NCBI GenBank assembly: GCA_017619975.1
Contig: JAFZRH010000018.1
Coordinates: 1-38,604, forward strand
Reading direction: 5' to 3'
Source: Lachnospiraceae bacterium
GTDB taxonomy: Bacteria > Bacillota > Clostridia > Lachnospirales > Lachnospiraceae
DNA length: 38,604 nt
Each line of letters starts with the position of its first letter. Positions within the stretch are counted from its first letter, which is position 1. The notes below the pieces were generated by a model. That model was given only the letters and a program-made list of their open reading frames with translations, was not told where the DNA came from and ran no database searches. The position numbers were made by a program, and so were the translations under genes. This document shows positions 14,291 to 23,741 of the stretch, piece by piece.

Positions 14291-16954
14291 ATGACCTTTT
14301 TTCATATGATATATCAATTGCTGATAGGACCGCTGGAGCTGCTGTTCGAAACGGTTTACGGCATTGCGCAGCTGATTCTCGGGAAACCCGGCTTTTCCAT
14401 CATTCTGATGAGTCTGGTCATGAATCTGCTGCTGCTGCCGCTGTACAAACGGGCGGACGCGATCCAGGCGGAGCAGCGTGAAAAAGAAAAAAGTCTGGCG
14501 CATTGGGCGGGTCATATCAAAAAAACGTTCCGCGGTGACGAACGGTATATGATCCTTCAGACCTATTACCGCCAGAACGGATACAAACCGTTTCACGTCT
14601 TAAAGGGGTCTCTGCCTCTTCTTCTGGAGATCCCCTTTTTCATTGCGGCTTATCATTTCCTCTCCAATCTGCAGGAACTGAAAGGGACGGCCTTCGGCCC
14701 GATCTCGGATCTCGGTTCGCCGGACGATCTGCTTCGGATCGGCACGCTCACGCTGCATCTTCTCCCGGTTCTGATGACGATTATCAATGTGATCTCCAGC
14801 GCGATCTACACCAAAGGCTTTTCGCTGCGGGACAAGATCCAGCTCTACGGCATGGCCCTGCTCTTTCTGATCCTCTTATACGAATCCCCTGCCGGTCTGG
14901 TCCTGTACTGGACGCTGAACAATCTCTTTTCCCTGATCAAGAATATCGTGCAGAAGATCGCCGAAAAGCTGCGGAACAAAAAGGCCCGTCCGCTGGCGGA
15001 AGGAGCGGCTGTCGTCCGGGCAAAGGCGGACCGTTCGTATAACGGCCTGTTCCTGTCCGGCTGCGCTTTCCTGACCTTGCTGACCGGCGTCCTGATCCCT
15101 TCGACCCTGGTCCTGGCTTCCCCTTCGGAATTTGTTCTGATGTCGGAATTCCGCTCCCCGCTGGTCCATGTCTTCAGCGCTTTTCTGCTGGCCGCCGGTC
15201 TGTTTCTGATCTGGTTCGGCATCTTTTACTATCTGGCGGGAGCGAAAGGCAGAAAAGCCTTTGCTTTCCTGGTCTGGCTCTTCGCCGGTGCTGCCACAGT
15301 CAACTACATGTTCTTCGGGACCGACCTCGGCAATATGTCCGCCGAACTGAAATACGACGTTTCTCCGGTCTTCGGGTCCCCGCAGATATTGCTGAACTTC
15401 GGCATCCTGCTTCTTCTGGCCGGTCTGATGGCTCTGCTGTGGTTCAAACAGAAGAAACTGGTCCGCGGTCTGTATATCGTCCTGATCCTGGCCGTCACGG
15501 GCATGGCCGGCATCAATCTGATCAACACGCAGAAACAGCTGCCTCAGATCCGGAAGGTCGTCTACAACGTGCCCGACGATCTGGCTCATTTCACGCTGAG
15601 CCGCAACGGAAAGAACGTCATCGTCATCATGATGGACCGCGCGGTCAGCGCCCTGGTGCCCTACCTTTTCCAGGAGAAGCCGGAGCTGACGGAGCAGTTC
15701 GAGGGATTTACCTTCTATCCCAACACTCTTTCCTACGGACCGGTCACCAATATCGCTTCGCCGGCCTTGTTCGGCGGATACGATTATACGCCGGAGCGCA
15801 TGAATGCCCGTTCTACGGTAAAGATCGCGCAGAAACATGACGAGGCGCTGAAGCTCATGCCGGTCACCTTCTATAACGCCGGATACGACGTGACGCTCTG
15901 CGATCCGACCTATGCCGGCTACAGCTGGTTCCCGGATCTTTCCGCCTTTGACGAATATCCGGGCATGCATACCTATATTACCAATGAAGGCCAGTTCTCG
16001 CTGTACGGCAAGGAGGGACAGAGCGTCAAGATGACGAAGCTCTGGGAACGGAATTTCTTCTGCTACAGTCTGATGAAGGTCTCTCCGGTCGCGCTGCAGC
16101 CTTTCCTGTATCAGGAGGGATCCTACTATAAAACGGAATCGGCCGTGGAACTGACGCAGCTCTGGTACGGCATGTCGATCGCCAAGGGGCTGCATCAGCC
16201 GTTCCTGAACGCCTACTCCGTCCTGTGCTCCCTGCCGGCCATGAGCCGCATCAGCGACGGGGACGACAACAATTTTATGATGATGGTCAACTACACCGCG
16301 CATGAACCGAATCTGCTGCAGGAACCGCAGTATGAGCCGCAGCAGGAGGTCAACAACCTCCTGTATGATGCGAATCAGAGCCGCTTCACCGTGAACGGCC
16401 GGACGCTGCGGATCGAGCAGATCAGCCAGATGGCGCATTATCACGTCAACATGGCGGCGCTGATCCGGCTGGGCATCTGGATGGATTTCCTGCGGGAAAG
16501 CGGCGTCTACGACAATACGCGCATCATTATCGTGGCGGATCACGGACGGGATCTGGGCGTGCTGGACGAAATGAAGTTCGGTACGGAAGATTACGAGGAC
16601 GTGATGGTCTACAATCCGCTGCTGCTGGTCAAAGACTTTAATGCGCCGAAAGAGCCCTGCGTCACCGACGATCGCTTTATGACCAACGCGGATACGCCGA
16701 TCCTGGCTTTTGACGGGCTGATCGAGGATCCGAAGAATCCGCTGACAGGCCTTCCGGTCACGGATGAACTGAAATATGTCCCGCAGCAGCACATCTTTTT
16801 CTCGGACATTTACTCAACGGTCAAGAATAACGGAACGGTCTTCCTGCCGGGGACCTGGCTGACCATGGACGGATACGATCTCTTCGATATGAGCAGCTGG
16901 CATACGGTGGGAGAAAAGCCGGACTTTACGGCAGATTCGGAAGGGAGCCGGTAG
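14291..16954 (+). CDS. YidC/Oxa1-like domain fused to a sulfatase/LTA-synthase-fold domain
   Basis: 887 residues. Residues 1-~235 resemble YidC/Oxa1 insertases: membrane spans, a basic cytoplasmic hairpin (about 53-85), PLLLEIPFFIAAYHFLS, then GLVLYWTLNNLFSLIKN as in the last YidC helix. The groove Arg of YidC (SpoIIIJ Arg73) is Asn45 here, in SLVMNLLLLP. Four or five more spans follow to about 415. The outer domain (about 430-830) is alkaline-phosphatase superfamily: NVIVIMMD (metal Asp), SYGPVTNIASPALFGG with a candidate Thr/Ser nucleophile, and IIIVADHGRDLG with Asp-His metal ligands. LTA synthases of this superfamily transfer phosphoglycerol. The next gene is a glycerophosphotransferase, so a role in teichoic-acid-like polymer assembly is inferred. 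Not the main insertase, I suspect. Confidence 0.85.
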   Translation: MTFFHMIYQLLIGPLELLFETVYGIAQLILGKPGFSIILMSLVMNLLLLPLYKRADAIQAEQREKEKSLAHWAGHIKKTFRGDERYMILQTYYRQNGYKPFHVLKGSLPLLLEIPFFIAAYHFLSNLQELKGTAFGPISDLGSPDDLLRIGTLTLHLLPVLMTIINVISSAIYTKGFSLRDKIQLYGMALLFLILLYESPAGLVLYWTLNNLFSLIKNIVQKIAEKLRNKKARPLAEGAAVVRAKADRSYNGLFLSGCAFLTLLTGVLIPSTLVLASPSEFVLMSEFRSPLVHVFSAFLLAAGLFLIWFGIFYYLAGAKGRKAFAFLVWLFAGAATVNYMFFGTDLGNMSAELKYDVSPVFGSPQILLNFGILLLLAGLMALLWFKQKKLVRGLYIVLILAVTGMAGINLINTQKQLPQIRKVVYNVPDDLAHFTLSRNGKNVIVIMMDRAVSALVPYLFQEKPELTEQFEGFTFYPNTLSYGPVTNIASPALFGGYDYTPERMNARSTVKIAQKHDEALKLMPVTFYNAGYDVTLCDPTYAGYSWFPDLSAFDEYPGMHTYITNEGQFSLYGKEGQSVKMTKLWERNFFCYSLMKVSPVALQPFLYQEGSYYKTESAVELTQLWYGMSIAKGLHQPFLNAYSVLCSLPAMSRISDGDDNNFMMMVNYTAHEPNLLQEPQYEPQQEVNNLLYDANQSRFTVNGRTLRIEQISQMAHYHVNMAALIRLGIWMDFLRESGVYDNTRIIIVADHGRDLGVLDEMKFGTEDYEDVMVYNPLLLVKDFNAPKEPCVTDDRFMTNADTPILAFDGLIEDPKNPLTGLPVTDELKYVPQQHIFFSDIYSTVKNNGTVFLPGTWLTMDGYDLFDMSSWHTVGEKPDFTADSEGSR

Positions 16955-16955
16955 G

Positions 16956-18212
16956 ATGAAAAGCTTTCTGCTGTATATCGATCCCGGAACCGGGAGCATG
17001 CTTTTTACCATCCTGATCGGCGTTCTCGGCACCGCCTTTTATCTGCTGCGGGGGCTTCTGGTCAAGCTTCATTTCTGGCTCTCCGGCGGAAAAGGCGAGA
17101 AAAAGAGCGATCAGGAGCGGATCCCTTTTGTGATCTTTACCGACAGCCGCCGTTACTGGAACCTGTTCGGGCCGGTCTGCGATGAGTTTGAGAAGCGGGG
17201 ACAGAAGCTGGTATACATGACGGCTTCCGCCGATGATCCCGCACTGCAGCAGCACTACGAACATGTCCGCTGCGAATTTATAGGAGAAGGCAACAAAGCG
17301 TTTGCCAGGCTGGGCTTTTTAAAAGCTGACGTACTGCTTTCCTCTACGCCCGGTCTGGAGGTTTATCAGTGGAAACGTTCGAAGGACGTGAAATGGTACG
17401 TTCACGCTCTTCACGCCGCCAGTGACGTGACGGCTTACCGGATGTTCGGCATCGACTATTACGACGCCCTGCTGCTTTCCGGCGCGTATCAGATCGATCA
17501 GGTCCGTCAGCTGGAGAAGCTCCGGAACCTGCCCGAAAAGGAAGTGGAGCTGGTCGGCGTTCCTTTTCTTGACAGCATGAAAAAGCGGCTGGAAGAATCT
17601 GCCCCCCTGCCGCCGCATCCCGTGACGGTCCTGCTGGCGCCGACCTGGGGACAGAGCGGCATTTTAAGCCGCTACGGGGCGAAGGCGATCCGCTCGCTCC
17701 TTAACACCGGCTATCATATCATCGTGCGCCCGCACCCGCAGTCCTTCACTTCGGAAAAGGAGATGCTGGAGCGGCTGATGGCGGAGTTCCCGGAAAGCGA
17801 TCAGCTGGAGTGGAACCGCGATAACGACAACTTTGAGGTCCTGCGCCGCTCCGACGTGATGATTTCAGACTATTCCGGCGTCATTTTCGACTACTGCCTG
17901 ATCTTTGACCGGCCCGTGATCTATGCGGACACTTCTTTTGATAAATCGCCCTATGACGCCGCCTGGCTGGACGAGGAGCTTTGGACCTTCCGGACGCTGC
18001 CAAAGATCGGACACGCACTGAAGGAAGAGGATTTCGATTCGATCAAAGAGGTGGTCGACGGGATGATCGGCAATCCGAAATACCGGGCCGCCATTGAGGC
18101 GGCCCGGCAGGAGACCTGGTGTCATATCGGGGAGGGAGCCGCCCGGATTGCTGACTATATGATCCGTAAACAGGCCGAACTGAAGGAAGCGGCCGTGAAG
18201 AAGCACGGCTGA
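16956..18212 (+). CDS. CDP-glycerol glycerophosphotransferase family protein (TagB/TagF-like)
   Basis: 418 residues. A single N-terminal span (about 12-33) anchors it; the remainder is the GT-B-like glycerophosphotransferase domain that adds glycerol-phosphate from CDP-glycerol to teichoic acid or a linkage unit. Recognisable: HALHAASDV (active-site region with His), LLAPTWGQSG, HIIVRPHPQS and SDVMISDYSGVIFDY (TagF-like HPxxD/E and SDxS elements). Starts 1 nt after the stop of the YidC-sulfatase fusion, so expression is tightly coupled. Shorter than TagF (about 740), close to TagB (about 380). Priming versus polymerising activity cannot be told. Confidence 0.88.
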   Translation: MKSFLLYIDPGTGSMLFTILIGVLGTAFYLLRGLLVKLHFWLSGGKGEKKSDQERIPFVIFTDSRRYWNLFGPVCDEFEKRGQKLVYMTASADDPALQQHYEHVRCEFIGEGNKAFARLGFLKADVLLSSTPGLEVYQWKRSKDVKWYVHALHAASDVTAYRMFGIDYYDALLLSGAYQIDQVRQLEKLRNLPEKEVELVGVPFLDSMKKRLEESAPLPPHPVTVLLAPTWGQSGILSRYGAKAIRSLLNTGYHIIVRPHPQSFTSEKEMLERLMAEFPESDQLEWNRDNDNFEVLRRSDVMISDYSGVIFDYCLIFDRPVIYADTSFDKSPYDAAWLDEELWTFRTLPKIGHALKEEDFDSIKEVVDGMIGNPKYRAAIEAARQETWCHIGEGAARIADYMIRKQAELKEAAVKKHG

Positions 18213-20094: not shown

Positions 20095-21249
20095 ATGAAT
20101 AAAACGGAGATCCTGATTGCCATCCTGGGAAGCGGCTTCCTGATCTATCTGATCCGGGAGGCTTTTCAGGTGCGCGCGGACAGGAAAAAACTCACGCACG
20201 TCATTTATGTGAACGGAACGCGCGGCAAGTCCACCGTGACCCGCATGATCGCGGCCGGGCTTTCGGCCGGCGGTCATAAGGTCATGTGCAAGACCACCGG
20301 GACGCTGCCTATCGCAATCTATCCGGACGGTCATCAGGAAGAGGTGCACCGCCGCGGACCGGCCAACATCCGCGAGCAGATCCGGTATCTGCACATCGCG
20401 GCAAAGGAAGGGGCGGACTGCCTGGTCATCGAATGCATGGCGCTTTTGCCGGAATATCAGCGGATCTCCGGGAAAAATATGCTGCACTGCGATATCGGGG
20501 TGATCACGAACGCGCGGCTCGATCATATGGACGTGATGGGGGATACGCGCGGGGAGATCTTAAGCTGCCTCATGGAAATGCTGCCGGAAAAGGGACAGAT
20601 CTTTACGGCAGAGCAGGATTTCAGGGAGATGTTCGAGGCCCGCGCGAAGAAGCTGGACAGCTTGCTGACCGTCTCCGACGAGCATACGCTGGGGGATCTG
20701 CCGGGGGCCGAGGCGCTGGATTTTCCGGAAAACGTCGCGCTGGCGCTGTCGGTCTGCGAAGCCGTCGGCGTGGAGAGGAAGACGGCTTATCAGGGCATAG
20801 AAGGCTTTATCCGCGATCCGTACGCGCTGTCGGTCTTCAGGGGCAGCAATACGGTTTTCGTCAACGCGCTTTCGGCCAACGACGTGAGCTCCACGCAGAT
20901 GATCTACGAGAAGATCCGGAGCGGTGAGGAAGAGGAACTGGTGATCCTGATCAACAACCGGGGGGACCGTCCCGCCCGCGCGAAGGATATGGCCCGGCTG
21001 GTCGGCGTGATGCAGCCGGCGAAGGTCTGGATCCTGGGAGACAATCAGAACGCGCTGGAGGCGCTTTGCCGAAAAGCGGCGCCGAAGGCGGAACTGACGG
21101 GGTATTCGGCGGCCGAAGAAGTCCCGTTCGCCAGCGACAGGCCGCGTCTGATCCTGGCGGTCGGCAACATCAAGAACGAGGGCATCCGTCTGGTGGAACG
21201 GGCCAAAAACGAGCTGGAGCTTACGGAGGGAGTCGGGTATGTACAGTGA
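20095..21249 (+). CDS. pgsB: Poly-gamma-glutamate synthase PgsB/CapB
   Basis: 384 residues, normal for PgsB (about 390). ATP-dependent amide ligase of the Mur-ligase superfamily that extends poly-gamma-glutamate together with PgsC. N-terminal membrane helix (about 5-22), P-loop NGTRGKST (40-47), MCKTTGT, RRGPANIREQ, VIECMALLPEYQ (metal-binding Glu region), GVITNARLDHMDVMG (the TNxxxDHxD-type element), and NNRGDRPARA in the C-terminal part. Ends 11 nt inside pgsC, typical coupling. Folylpolyglutamate synthase-like activity is excluded by the membrane helix and the PgsC neighbour. Confidence 0.95.
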   Translation: MNKTEILIAILGSGFLIYLIREAFQVRADRKKLTHVIYVNGTRGKSTVTRMIAAGLSAGGHKVMCKTTGTLPIAIYPDGHQEEVHRRGPANIREQIRYLHIAAKEGADCLVIECMALLPEYQRISGKNMLHCDIGVITNARLDHMDVMGDTRGEILSCLMEMLPEKGQIFTAEQDFREMFEARAKKLDSLLTVSDEHTLGDLPGAEALDFPENVALALSVCEAVGVERKTAYQGIEGFIRDPYALSVFRGSNTVFVNALSANDVSSTQMIYEKIRSGEEEELVILINNRGDRPARAKDMARLVGVMQPAKVWILGDNQNALEALCRKAAPKAELTGYSAAEEVPFASDRPRLILAVGNIKNEGIRLVERAKNELELTEGVGYVQ

Positions 21250-21661
21250 GATTGTGATCGTCGGCATTCTGATCGCCGTGATCTTTTCGGAGATCAGCGG
21301 CTATTCCACCGGCGGCCTGGTGGCTCCGGTCTATCTCGCGTTAAATCTTACGGATCCCTGGCGGATCGCTTTCTCGCTGCTGATCATTCTCGCGGTCTGG
21401 GGCGCGGACCGGCTGATCGGAAAATTTCTGATCCTTTACGGAAGACGCCTCTTTGCCGTCAACGTGGTCCTCACTTTCGCTCTGTCCTGGCTGGTCGGTG
21501 CGGTCGGCATTTTCCCCTTCGGGATCCGCGTGATCGGCTATATTGTGCCGGCGCTCATCGTACGGGATCTGGAACGGCAGGGCTTCGCGAAGACCGGGCT
21601 GGCGCTCGGGATCTGCACGGCGCTCTGCGCGCTGGCGCTTTTATGGGTCGGCATGCTATGA
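21239..21661 (+). CDS. pgsC: Poly-gamma-glutamate synthesis protein PgsC/CapC
   Basis: 140 residues, four or five membrane spans. Starts as PgsC does: SEIVIVGILIAVIFSE, then GYSTGGLVAPVYLAL, RRLFAVNVVLTF and GYIVPALIVRDLERQG, all family hallmarks. Partner of PgsB in the membrane synthase complex. SD GGAGGGAG; overlaps pgsB by 11 nt, and its stop TGA overlaps the next ATG (ATGA). Confidence 0.93.
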   Translation: MYSEIVIVGILIAVIFSEISGYSTGGLVAPVYLALNLTDPWRIAFSLLIILAVWGADRLIGKFLILYGRRLFAVNVVLTFALSWLVGAVGIFPFGIRVIGYIVPALIVRDLERQGFAKTGLALGICTALCALALLWVGML

Positions 21662-22677
21662 AGCGGCCGCGCTGTCAAACAAATCCGTTTGTTTTCTGTT
21701 GCCTGATGCTCTGCCTGATGCCGCTGCTTTTTGTTTTTTCCGGCTGCGGGCAGGATCCGGATAAACTGCCGTATGCGAAGGTCATGGAAAAAGCGGCCCG
21801 GCTGCATACGGAAGCCACCCGGCTGATCCGGGAAGAAAAGGCCGCCCGCGGGATCCCCCTTTCGGAAGAAGACAAGCTGGGGATCGGTCTTCTGGGCGAG
21901 GATTTTACGGCCATCATGACGACTTCGGCAGGTCTGCCCGAAAAGCGCACGTCCCAGCTGCCGGATTTCGCGGCGCTTGCCGTGCATTACTTTTATGAGG
22001 CCGGGCTGAAAAAAGGCGACGCAGTCGGCGCGAATTTTTCCGGCTCCTATCCGGGCTTCAATCTGGCGGTGCTCTGCGCGGCCGAGGTGATGGGCCTGGA
22101 TCTGCGCTATACGACTTCCGTCGGTTCGTCGGCTTACGGCGCGAACAATCCGGGCTATACCTTTCCGGAAATGGTGAAAACCCTGTACGACGCGAAGCTG
22201 ATCTCCCGGATGCCGGTGCTGGTGACGCTGGGCGGCAAGGGAGATATGGGCCTCAACATGATGGCCTACGTGCTGGAAGAGGAAGAAGACCTGAAGGCGG
22301 TCGAAGACATGAAGGCGCGCCTGATCGAAAACGGGCTGGCACCGGCGAATATCGAAAGCTTCGCGCAGGACATTGCCCTGCACGAAGAACTGTACGGGGA
22401 CATCAAAGCCTTTGTCAACGCCGGCGGCAACGGACTGGGTCTCGGGGCTTCGGAGGACAGCTTTATGTTAAAGGCCGGCAACGGCCTTCTGAAGCCGCAG
22501 CCGGTAGAAATCACGGCCCGCAGCGGCCTTACGGAACGTTATCTGGCCAAAGGCCTGCCGACCATCCATCTGCTCGCGGCGGGGAAACTCTGTGAAGAGA
22601 GCGGGATCCCCTTTGATCCGGATGAGCTGCCTGAGATCGGGACTTCGGGCGTGTATTACAGGAGGGACGCGAAATGA
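21658..22677 (+). CDS. pgsW: Poly-gamma-glutamate system protein PgsW, lipoprotein paralogue
   Basis: 339 residues. The start at 21658 gives a 4-nt ATGA overlap with pgsC. The signal peptide ends in a lipobox VFSGC, so the protein is predicted to be a lipoprotein on the outer face. The body shares with the next gene: GIGLLGEDFT, KRTSQLPDFAAL, GDAVGANFSGSYPG, MGLDLRYTTSVGSS, NAGGN, and a GLPTIHLL segment near the end. PgsW occurs in Pgs loci that lack parts of the Bacillus pgsBCAE set; its biochemical role is unknown to me. No PgsA/CapA gene is present in this window. Confidence 0.85.
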   Translation: MKRPRCQTNPFVFCCLMLCLMPLLFVFSGCGQDPDKLPYAKVMEKAARLHTEATRLIREEKAARGIPLSEEDKLGIGLLGEDFTAIMTTSAGLPEKRTSQLPDFAALAVHYFYEAGLKKGDAVGANFSGSYPGFNLAVLCAAEVMGLDLRYTTSVGSSAYGANNPGYTFPEMVKTLYDAKLISRMPVLVTLGGKGDMGLNMMAYVLEEEEDLKAVEDMKARLIENGLAPANIESFAQDIALHEELYGDIKAFVNAGGNGLGLGASEDSFMLKAGNGLLKPQPVEITARSGLTERYLAKGLPTIHLLAAGKLCEESGIPFDPDELPEIGTSGVYYRRDAK

Positions 22678-23741
22678 CGAAACGCAAGCAATTCGGATAT
22701 GCGCTCCTGCTGCTTGCTTTAACGGCGGCGGCGCTCCTGATCTATCTGACCGGCCGCCGGATCCGGCTGCCCTATGCCGACGAGATGGACGCGGCCTCCC
22801 GCCTGCACGTTCAGGTCGTGGAAGCGGTCAAAGAAGAACGGCTGGCCCGCGGATACGAACTGGTGCCGGAGGACCGGCTGAAGATCGGGCTTCTGGGCGA
22901 AGAGATCACGGATATCACCACTTCGCTGGGCAATCTGGAAGCGAAGCGGACGTCGCAGCTGCCGGATATGGCGGCGCTTTTCGTGCGTCTTCTGCATGAA
23001 GCGGGCGTTCAAAAAGGCGATACGATCGGCGCGAGCTTTTCGGCTTCCTTCCCCGGCGCGGATCTGGCGCTGCTCTGTGCGGTCGATGTGATGGGCCTAA
23101 AGATTATTTACAGCGCGACCATCGGCGCTTCCAACTTTGGCGCGACGCTGCCCGGCTACGTTCTGCCGGAGATGATAGGGACCGCCGTGGATGCCGGTCT
23201 TTTATCGACGATACCGCAGATGGTTTCTCTGGGCGGCGACGAAGACCGCGGCAAAAACATGATCGGCGTGCTGCTGGAGGAAACGGAAGAGATCGACGCC
23301 ATGACCGCGCGGCTGCGGGAAGAAGGCTTTACCCTTCTGGAATTTGACAGCTTTGAAGCGGATATCGCCTACCGCATGGAGCAGATGGGGGACATTGCTG
23401 CCTTCGTGAACGTCGGCGGCAACATCCTGGGCATCGGCAACAACGAAGCGTCACTGTCTTTCGGACAGGGCCTTCTGAAACCGTCGCAGCCGGCTTTAAG
23501 CGCCAAAAGCGGCCTGGTGGAACAGTATCTGGCGCTGGGCGTGCCGACGATCCACTTCTTAAATCTGAAGCAGCTCTGCGCGGAAAAAGGGGTGCCTTTT
23601 GATCCCGTGAGCGTGCCGGAGATCGGAAGCAGCGAGGTCTATTACAGTCACGATTATTCCAAAGCGGCCATCGCGGCGGCCGGCCTTTTCACGCTGGGAG
23701 CCTGCGTCGTAATCGAGCGGAAAGAAAAAAAGAGGCTGTGA
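22674..23741 (+). CDS. pgsW: Poly-gamma-glutamate system protein PgsW, second paralogue (membrane-anchored)
   Basis: 355 residues, tandem paralogue of the preceding protein with the same core motifs (KIGLLGEEIT, KRTSQLPDMAAL, GDTIGASFSASFPG, NVGGN, GVPTIHFL). Unlike the first copy it has an ordinary N-terminal membrane anchor (about 7-26) without a lipobox and an added C-terminal membrane span (about 328-347) with a basic tail. The start overlaps the previous stop (ATGA). Its stop codon lies inside the left arm of the inverted-repeat element at 23734, so the element's insertion may have fixed the present C-terminus. Last gene of the envelope operon. Confidence 0.83.
   Translation: MTKRKQFGYALLLLALTAAALLIYLTGRRIRLPYADEMDAASRLHVQVVEAVKEERLARGYELVPEDRLKIGLLGEEITDITTSLGNLEAKRTSQLPDMAALFVRLLHEAGVQKGDTIGASFSASFPGADLALLCAVDVMGLKIIYSATIGASNFGATLPGYVLPEMIGTAVDAGLLSTIPQMVSLGGDEDRGKNMIGVLLEETEEIDAMTARLREEGFTLLEFDSFEADIAYRMEQMGDIAAFVNVGGNILGIGNNEASLSFGQGLLKPSQPALSAKSGLVEQYLALGVPTIHFLNLKQLCAEKGVPFDPVSVPEIGSSEVYYSHDYSKAAIAAAGLFTLGACVVIERKEKKRL

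Follow-up and report, generated by a model that had tools for sequence, protein, structure and literature searches.

A YidC-like domain joined to an alkaline phosphatase superfamily domain in a candidate three-part module for surface decoration with amino-alkyl phosphate and phosphonate groups

A contig of 38,604 nucleotides from a Lachnospiraceae bacterium (JAFZRH010000018.1, assembly GCA_017619975.1; the whole stretch is called the window below) carries a gene whose product combines a YidC-like domain, five transmembrane (5TM) spans and an extracytoplasmic domain of the alkaline phosphatase (AP) superfamily, an architecture that we designate the type I fusion. The adjoining gene, its partner, encodes a TagF-like enzyme. 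We estimate a probability of about 0.5 that both products belong to a three-part module that adds amino-alkyl phospho or phosphono groups to the cell surface, the head groups being choline phosphate, 2-aminoethylphosphonate (AEP) and possibly ethanolamine- or aminopropanol-phosphate. YidC, TagF-like and AP look like a three-part module because a second layout, in which the YidC domain is swapped onto the TagF-like enzyme, carries the same parts together with the same kinds of supply genes, that is, genes that make, import or activate with CTP choline phosphate, AEP or a related amino-alkyl phosphate. The module suggests an unrecognised route for decorating bacterial surfaces with small charged groups. 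Its parts are known already; their combination is new as far as we found, and is described in no title or abstract found in the open-access literature.

The fusion protein and its family

The gene (14291-16954, + strand) is a single unbroken open reading frame. In a Pfam scan, 60KD_IMP scored 84.2 bits at residues 34-220, over its cut-off of 35, and hydropathy places five spans ahead of the outer domain, as in phosphotransferases of the type of LtaS and of EptA, an AP-superfamily head-group transferase. We assigned the outer domain to the AP superfamily because it holds invariant catalytic-type residues and its family matches sulfatase and LtaS structures by profile comparison, in which the sequence is distant from every solved member. 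D449, T486, H671, D750 and H751 are unchanged in all 50 rows of an alignment made of the window protein and 49 of its 52 long homologues (three clipped at the end of a locus were omitted); the roles given to these residues are by analogy, the comparison with LtaS having been made without a full-length alignment. Type I sulfatases carry a Cys or Ser that is converted to formylglycine. That residue is absent from the 50 aligned fusions, in all of which the presumed nucleophile is Thr, and the window protein has the Thr nucleophile and metal-ligand set of LtaS/EptA-type AP phosphotransferases. An earlier note on this sequence had read the protein as a YidC-like domain fused to a sulfatase-fold domain, which the Pfam scan, the invariant residues and the profile matches confirm.

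Among known systems, the AP transferases LtaS, EptA and PptA are alike in their five spans, outer AP domain, Thr nucleophile and transfer of a small phospho group to the surface (for LtaS, PMC4192460; this and the other papers cited by PMC number are drawn on in excerpt), and PptA is an AP-superfamily transferase of choline phosphate (PMC10434233). The fusion differs from them in its additional N-terminal YidC domain, its TagF-like partner and its link to CMP- or CDP-activated head groups.

A pattern-based scan of contigs yielded 39 related loci, with record titles of Lachnospiraceae, Oscillospiraceae, other Clostridia, Treponema/Spirochaetia and Desulfovibrio/Mailhella. These loci hold 52 homologous open reading frames longer than 780 amino acids, which excludes a chance or assembly join, and 14 of the 39 contain between two and five fusion genes, whole or partial. 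The fusion was found in 7 of 150 genomes of the window's family (own included; E<1e-70), in 3 of 398 genomes of a phylum sample (own included; E<=1e-40, only two candidates per genome being scored), and in 55 of 118 genomes of the family around a Treponema-titled genome; many of these genomes are drafts of unknown completeness. The nearest fusions found are those of genomes G548 (81% identity) and G549 (69%). At the other extreme, the G052 fusion, which lies outside the 50-row alignment, has a far more divergent AP part with no Sulfatase match, and G081 carries an 88-amino acid YidC-like fragment with no partner. Three to five YidC-AP fusions each occur in the spirochaete-type loci L046, L044, L051 and L053, the first of which also holds SIS, GHMP-kinase and NTP-transferase/HAD genes resembling those of sugar-nucleotide synthesis.

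Mean pairwise identity is 54% over residues 1-224, 29% over the 5TM part and 40% over the AP part, so that the YidC part is the most conserved portion of the family. It is therefore very improbable that this part is a mere membrane anchor acquired by chance fusion. Its Pfam score does fall well below that of the housekeeping copy in a search of the window genome (89 versus 154 bits), as an anchor might, but the family's most conserved domain holds many invariant residues, has been retained across distant groups, and recurs in a second YidC fusion, to the partner. Nor is the fusion the cell's housekeeping insertase, as the earlier note had allowed should the genome encode no other YidC: a separate standard yidC is present elsewhere in the window genome, adjoined by rnpA and jag.

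The TagF-like partner and the supply genes

The earlier note had called the neighbour gene, 1 nt away, a CDP-glycerol glycerophosphotransferase; its TagF-like nature and its conservation stand, while CDP-glycerol as its substrate is not supported. The C-terminal half of the partner corresponds to PF04464 (57.1 bits against a cut-off of 22.1), with RPHP and SDxS-type motifs as in TagF/TarF transferases. It departs from these in being short, in its hydrophobic N-terminus with a YIDPGTGS motif, of which Y7, D9, P10, T12 and G13 are invariant in 32 of 32 partners, and in having a recognised CDP-glycerol supply in only 4 of 40 hosts. The domain order and neighbour gene are both found in other genomes: a TagF-like gene is present in 31 of the 39 fusion loci, less than 300 bp away in 26, and in 29 of the 31 loci that remain once eight with less than 6 kb of flank in all are set aside. 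Seven of the eight partner-less loci end near the fusion on at least one side, and only L032 is fully flanked. In the 150 family genomes, the seven with the partner at E<1e-100 are exactly those with the fusion at E<1e-70, own included; with the own genome omitted, the co-occurrence is 6/6 versus 0/143 (Fisher p 7e-11, or 5e-10 if the G081 fragment is counted as a fusion). Three weaker partner matches (E 1e-57 to 1e-61) are swapped YidC-TagF fusions. In G004 (L114), a partner gene lies within a run of AEP genes from which the fusion is absent.

Supply genes were detected in 20 of the 39 fusion loci and in 19 of the 31 with at least 6 kb of flank, compared to none of 14 control loci around housekeeping yidC (p 6e-5 for 19/31 versus 0/14), where the partner is likewise absent. 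The controls were stretches of 12.5-18 kb, thirteen of them from fusion genomes and the other from a genome with the swapped layout. The probes had been taken from L027, L032, L033, L046, L058, L061, L062 and the window genome, and the test was therefore repeated without these seven loci, giving 12/24 versus 0/14 (p 0.001). Names of supply genes (Table 1) come from Pfam and NCBIfam scans of representatives, in which PEP mutase, the decarboxylase, AEP transaminase and PhnS2 were over the NCBIfam cut-offs and PhnU2 and CobD below them. Genome G395, from the window's family, has two fusion-partner pairs: one (L118) in a same-strand run with cytidylyltransferase, transaminase, PEP mutase and decarboxylase genes, the other (L119) adjacent to genes of choline type that run on the opposite strand. 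Both fusion types repeatedly have as a neighbour a cytidylyltransferase joined to a CobD-like (threonine-phosphate decarboxylase-like) enzyme (L062:3557-5617, + strand; L051, L059, L108 and L126), which may make and activate ethanolamine- or aminopropanol-phosphate.

These neighbourhoods recall two established pathways. Choline kinase, CDP-choline and EamA genes, as in the Lic-1 pathway (LicA, LicB, LicC, LicD), neighbour several fusion loci, although the fusion module has a TagF-like enzyme and a YidC-AP protein and extends to other head groups. PEP mutase, decarboxylase, transaminase and PntC of the Pnt pathway also neighbour fusions (PMC6697681). That paper names LicD-like phosphotransferases, and the excerpted text mentions none of YidC, sulfatase, CDP-glycerol or insertase.

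The same evidence bears on the proposal, made in the earlier note, of a teichoic-acid-like polymer unit, in which the partner would polymerise glycerol phosphate from CDP-glycerol and the fusion would export or modify the polymer. Consistent with it, the partner matches PF04464, and its profile also matches those of the TagF-like polymerase Cps3D and, weakly, of TarL; the profile matches of the AP family include LtaS; and glycerol-3-phosphate cytidylyltransferase (TIGR01518) is over its cut-off in 4 of 40 fusion genomes, with weaker matches in 24 of the 40. Yet TIGR01518 has no match in the window genome, whose assembly is 94% complete so that the absence is not certain; the TarF model NF041712 gives the partner merely 21.4 bits against a cut-off of 550; and the cytidylyltransferases beside fusions are mostly LicC- or PntC-like or fused to AEP- or CobD-like enzymes, the exceptions being PF01467-type genes immediately before the partner in L057 and between partner and fusion in the divergent G052 locus. 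We consider the polymer unit improbable. The absence of TIGR01518 from the window genome led us to set aside CDP-glycerol chemistry as the leading interpretation, the neighbourhoods pointing rather to choline phosphate, AEP and similar groups.

Table 1. Features of the fusion gene and its partner (window coordinates), and supply genes by fusion locus
Feature	Location	Strand	Remark
Coding sequence, 887 aa: YidC-like domain, five membrane spans, extracytoplasmic AP-superfamily domain (type I fusion)	14291..16954	+	
YidC/Oxa1 domain, residues 34-220	14390..14950	+	Pfam PF02096 (60KD_IMP)
Asn45 codon, YidC groove position	14423..14425	+	From alignment
Five TM-like segments, residues 251-414	15041..15532	+	Hydropathy; LtaS-type layout
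AP-superfamily domain, residues 441-759	15611..16567	+	Sulfatase Pfam below cut-off
D449, predicted metal ligand	15635..15637	+	Invariant, 50/50
T486, predicted nucleophile	15746..15748	+	Invariant, 50/50
H671	16301..16303	+	Invariant, 50/50
D750-H751, predicted metal ligands	16538..16543	+	Invariant, 50/50
Partner coding sequence, 418 aa, TagF-like (PF04464), proposed CDP/CMP-headgroup phosphotransferase	16956..18212	+	Starts 1 nt after fusion stop
YIDPGTGS motif, N-terminal hydrophobic stretch of partner	16974..16997	+	
Choline kinase with or without LicC or EamA transporter	L027, L033, L036, L037, L042, L054, L063		
PEP mutase, phosphonopyruvate decarboxylase and PntC-transaminase	L046, L048, L064		
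AEP-transporter-like genes	L032, L044, L045, L050, L058, L061		
Cytidylyltransferase fused to CobD-like enzyme	L051, L059, L062		
Lone cytidylyltransferase	L035		

The swapped layout and the role of the YidC domain

In the swapped layout, YidC domain and TagF-like enzyme form one protein, both parts being over their Pfam cut-offs in the three that were scanned. Matches were obtained in 25 of 295 genomes of the order, three of which (own included) cover the TagF part only, leaving 22 genomes with the swapped layout; the 23 loci that we examined come from 21 of these (G827 was omitted) and from G135 and G086. Supply genes of the same kinds occur in 13 of the 23. A separate 5TM AP protein was detected in nine by probes from L121, L123, L125 and L126, two of the nine (L123 and L126) matching by construction because probes came from them. 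L192 scored just the threshold of 75 bits and was taken as having supply genes. Four further swapped loci have a neighbour of 551-569 amino acids with an SDHG/ADHG motif and no Pfam family over cut-off. Two of the separate AP proteins can be aligned with the window family over three regions: the membrane part (the 5TM part of the fusion), the beginning of the AP domain, and the stretch around DHG. Stand-alone 5TM AP proteins (L121:2421-4115, − strand; two in L188) lie beside choline-type or AEP genes, the pair in L188 being a hint that one supply system may serve more than a single acceptor.

In a tree of YidC domains, each fusion type forms a single clade (100/100), and a joint clade of the two lineages is rejected (p-AU 0.011), from which it is likely, as far as sequences can tell, that the domain was recruited twice independently; five housekeeping rows and one fusion row of this tree are long or gappy, and long branches call for caution. 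The inner and the outer enzyme have thus each been joined to a YidC domain, so that YidC, TagF-like and AP proteins appear to act in one process, and this joining of YidC to either enzyme is the best evidence for it. The earlier note would have taken homologues without the sulfatase part as a point against its interpretation. The YidC-TagF fusions are such homologues, and a separate AP protein often adjoins them; we read this as support for one shared pathway.

How the parts might cooperate can be sketched as follows. A cytidylyltransferase (LicC, which makes CDP-choline, PntC or a relative) would produce CDP-choline or CMP-aminoethylphosphonate in the cytoplasm. Because both compounds are cytoplasmic, the outer AP enzyme needs another donor. 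The membrane-associated TagF-like enzyme would move the group from its CMP carrier onto a membrane lipid, the YidC-like domain, with a hydrophilic groove open to lipid, would pass the lipid headgroup outward, and the AP domain would load the group on T486 and hand it over to an acceptor outside, which is probably a glycan. We infer these last three steps, the lipid and the acceptor; what the sequences themselves show is how the domains are composed, the pairing with the partner, supply genes at roughly half of the loci, and the swapped fusion. Established in other systems are the production of CMP-AEP by PntC (PMC6697681), the combination of a catalytic Thr, a lipid donor and the 5TM layout in LtaS-type enzymes (PMC4192460), and in vitro lipid scrambling by the YidC of E. 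coli (PMC10491306, a preprint). The earlier note's suggestion of a YidC part at the service of the outer catalytic domain gains support as a deduction. We propose tentatively, as a possibility that falls short of even odds, that a YidC/Oxa1 domain was twice independently recruited as the lipid-passing part of a system in which the TagF-like enzyme loads the lipid, the groove carries it and the AP domain delivers.

A different role for the YidC part would be that of a dedicated insertase or chaperone for proteins of the module (such as the AP membrane part or the partner's hydrophobic hairpin), with no lipid transfer. Known YidCs handle proteins, the groove residue is compatible with insertion, and YidC fused to either partner is how a built-in chaperone would be expected to look. 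On the other hand, the YidC domain is the fusion's most conserved part, a housekeeping YidC is already in the genome, and an apparent double recruitment to the same pathway asks for a pathway-specific reason; we regard this role as unlikely. Compared to the YidC/Oxa1 insertases, with which it shares the core domain by sequence, the fusion YidC is a separate clade, joined to a phosphotransferase, in a genome with a housekeeping copy elsewhere.

The groove itself discriminates little. Asn45 does stand at the groove Arg position, as the earlier note had it: it lines up with the groove Arg of Bacillus halodurans YidC2. The position is N in 25, S in 18, T in 6 and Y in 1 of the 50 aligned fusions, basic in none. 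The note's deduction that classic insertase function is doubtful is not borne out, since related housekeeping YidCs may also lack a basic residue. In 16 housekeeping YidCs of fusion-bearing or related genomes (rnpA and jag homologues adjoining in 13, jag alone in 3), the column is K in 7, Y in 4, N in 2, Q in 1 and a gap in 2, the window genome's own copy having Lys; 7 of the 14 readable ones are without a basic residue, which makes it a weak criterion for an insertase. The swapped type has K in 16, R in 6 and a gap in 1. Published accounts cut both ways: in E. coli YidC, loss of the charge is tolerated if residue 517 is polar or aromatic, and S. mutans YidC2, with Trp at the site matching 517, requires Arg73 (PMC8920935). 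W207, the Trp of an LYW motif, is invariant in 50 of 50 fusions and presumably corresponds to residue 517. With housekeeping residues varying and the literature divided, Asn45 says little on insertase function, and as the mark of a dead insertase it was ruled out by the housekeeping YidCs and the data of PMC8920935. The same paper describes this groove position as strictly conserved and positively charged; six housekeeping YidCs from genomes of the window's family (L136 and L138-L142, all rnpA-yidC-jag loci) have Tyr or Asn there. An in-frame TAG splits the housekeeping yidC of L135 (G109:C21) in two, through either an assembly error or a real change.

Head groups, acceptors and remaining tensions

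For the window genome itself, the head group is likely choline phosphate, a reading from draft genomes that proceeds by elimination of the alternatives. TIGR01518, as stated above, and PEP mutase (TIGR02320) have no match in the genome, whose LicC-like genes lie on two other contigs: contig 58 carries LicC-kinase, LicC, BCCT transporter and LicD genes, and contig 46 a LicC-kinase gene adjoining an NCS1-type permease gene. Relatives of the LicC-kinase at 74% identity were found only in G022 and G109 among the 150 genomes, both of which are fusion genomes (the next best match has 38%). The pair of LicC-kinase and NCS1-type permease is also present in G548 and G549, where that LicC-kinase is the sole LicC match and LicD, TIGR01518 and PEP mutase have no match. 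A LicC-choline kinase stands beside an NCS1-type permease (Pfam cytosine/purines) at L095:6240-8024 (−), L121:6510-8294 (+), L122:7004-8770 (−), L127:2032-3801 (+) and L128:128-1897 (−), and the permease may be the choline importer in these genomes.

Several observations weigh against the proposed module. The Sulfatase score of the AP domain (22.1 bits at residues 441-759) lies slightly below the cut-off of 25. No supply gene is present in the 38.6-kb window, none was found by the main probes in 19 of the 39 fusion loci, and L030, L040, L049, L055 and L060 show none despite 6-8 kb on both sides. PEP mutase (TIGR02320) is over its cut-off in only 14 of 40 fusion genomes. LicD is present in 19 of 40, the window's included; it adjoins the fusion in G467 (L120), lies downstream of the AEP genes in L118 of G395, and could itself use CDP-choline or CMP-AEP. 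The partner tree hardly sorts by head group: with labels assigned manually, locus by locus, AEP requires 7 changes (8.6 by shuffling; as low in 106/500) and the CobD-like label 5 (4.7 by shuffling). Finally, the lipid step is the step with the least evidence.

Two expectations fared poorly in this comparison. The prediction that partner clades track the head group mostly failed by label shuffling; the choline label required 4 changes (7.0 by shuffling, as low in 5/500). The idea that the module replaces LicD did not hold either, given that LicD is present in 19 of 40 fusion genomes and lies right beside the fusion in L120 and close to it in L118; a single LicD probe recognised the gene in none of the 39 scan loci.

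In a further arrangement, the substrate of the partner would be a cytoplasmic glycan, as it is for LicD, and the role of the AP domain would be confined to moving, trimming or remodelling head groups outside. TagF-like enzymes normally act on cytoplasmic lipid-linked glycans, and genes for a glycosyltransferase, SIS, GHMP-kinase and sugar nucleotidyltransferase are found in some loci, all of Treponema type (clusters c4, c5, c6 and c8, with 6-7 occurrences each among the 46 loci that were compared). Alone, however, this arrangement leaves the fusion of YidC to both an outer and an inner enzyme unexplained, and we rate its chances as rather low.

If the YidC groove does carry a lipid headgroup in this way, the insertase fold would have a role beyond proteins, and phosphonate tailoring in bacteria would gain its missing transfer step. 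With the module, a natural use of the lipid-scrambling YidC fold becomes testable. Surface choline phosphate and phosphonates bear on host contact and phosphorus cycling, and the record titles of the hosts indicate bacteria from animal-gut and other samples. The steps of phosphonate attachment after C-P bond formation have been termed enigmatic (PMC6697681); the module offers candidate enzymes for the phosphonate transfer step, shared with choline phosphate.

Close downstream of the fusion gene, the window (20095-23741, + strand) carries a Mur-ligase-like gene followed by genes up to one for a poly-gamma-glutamate system protein (TIGR04332, 261.7 bits), likely a poly-gamma-glutamate operon.

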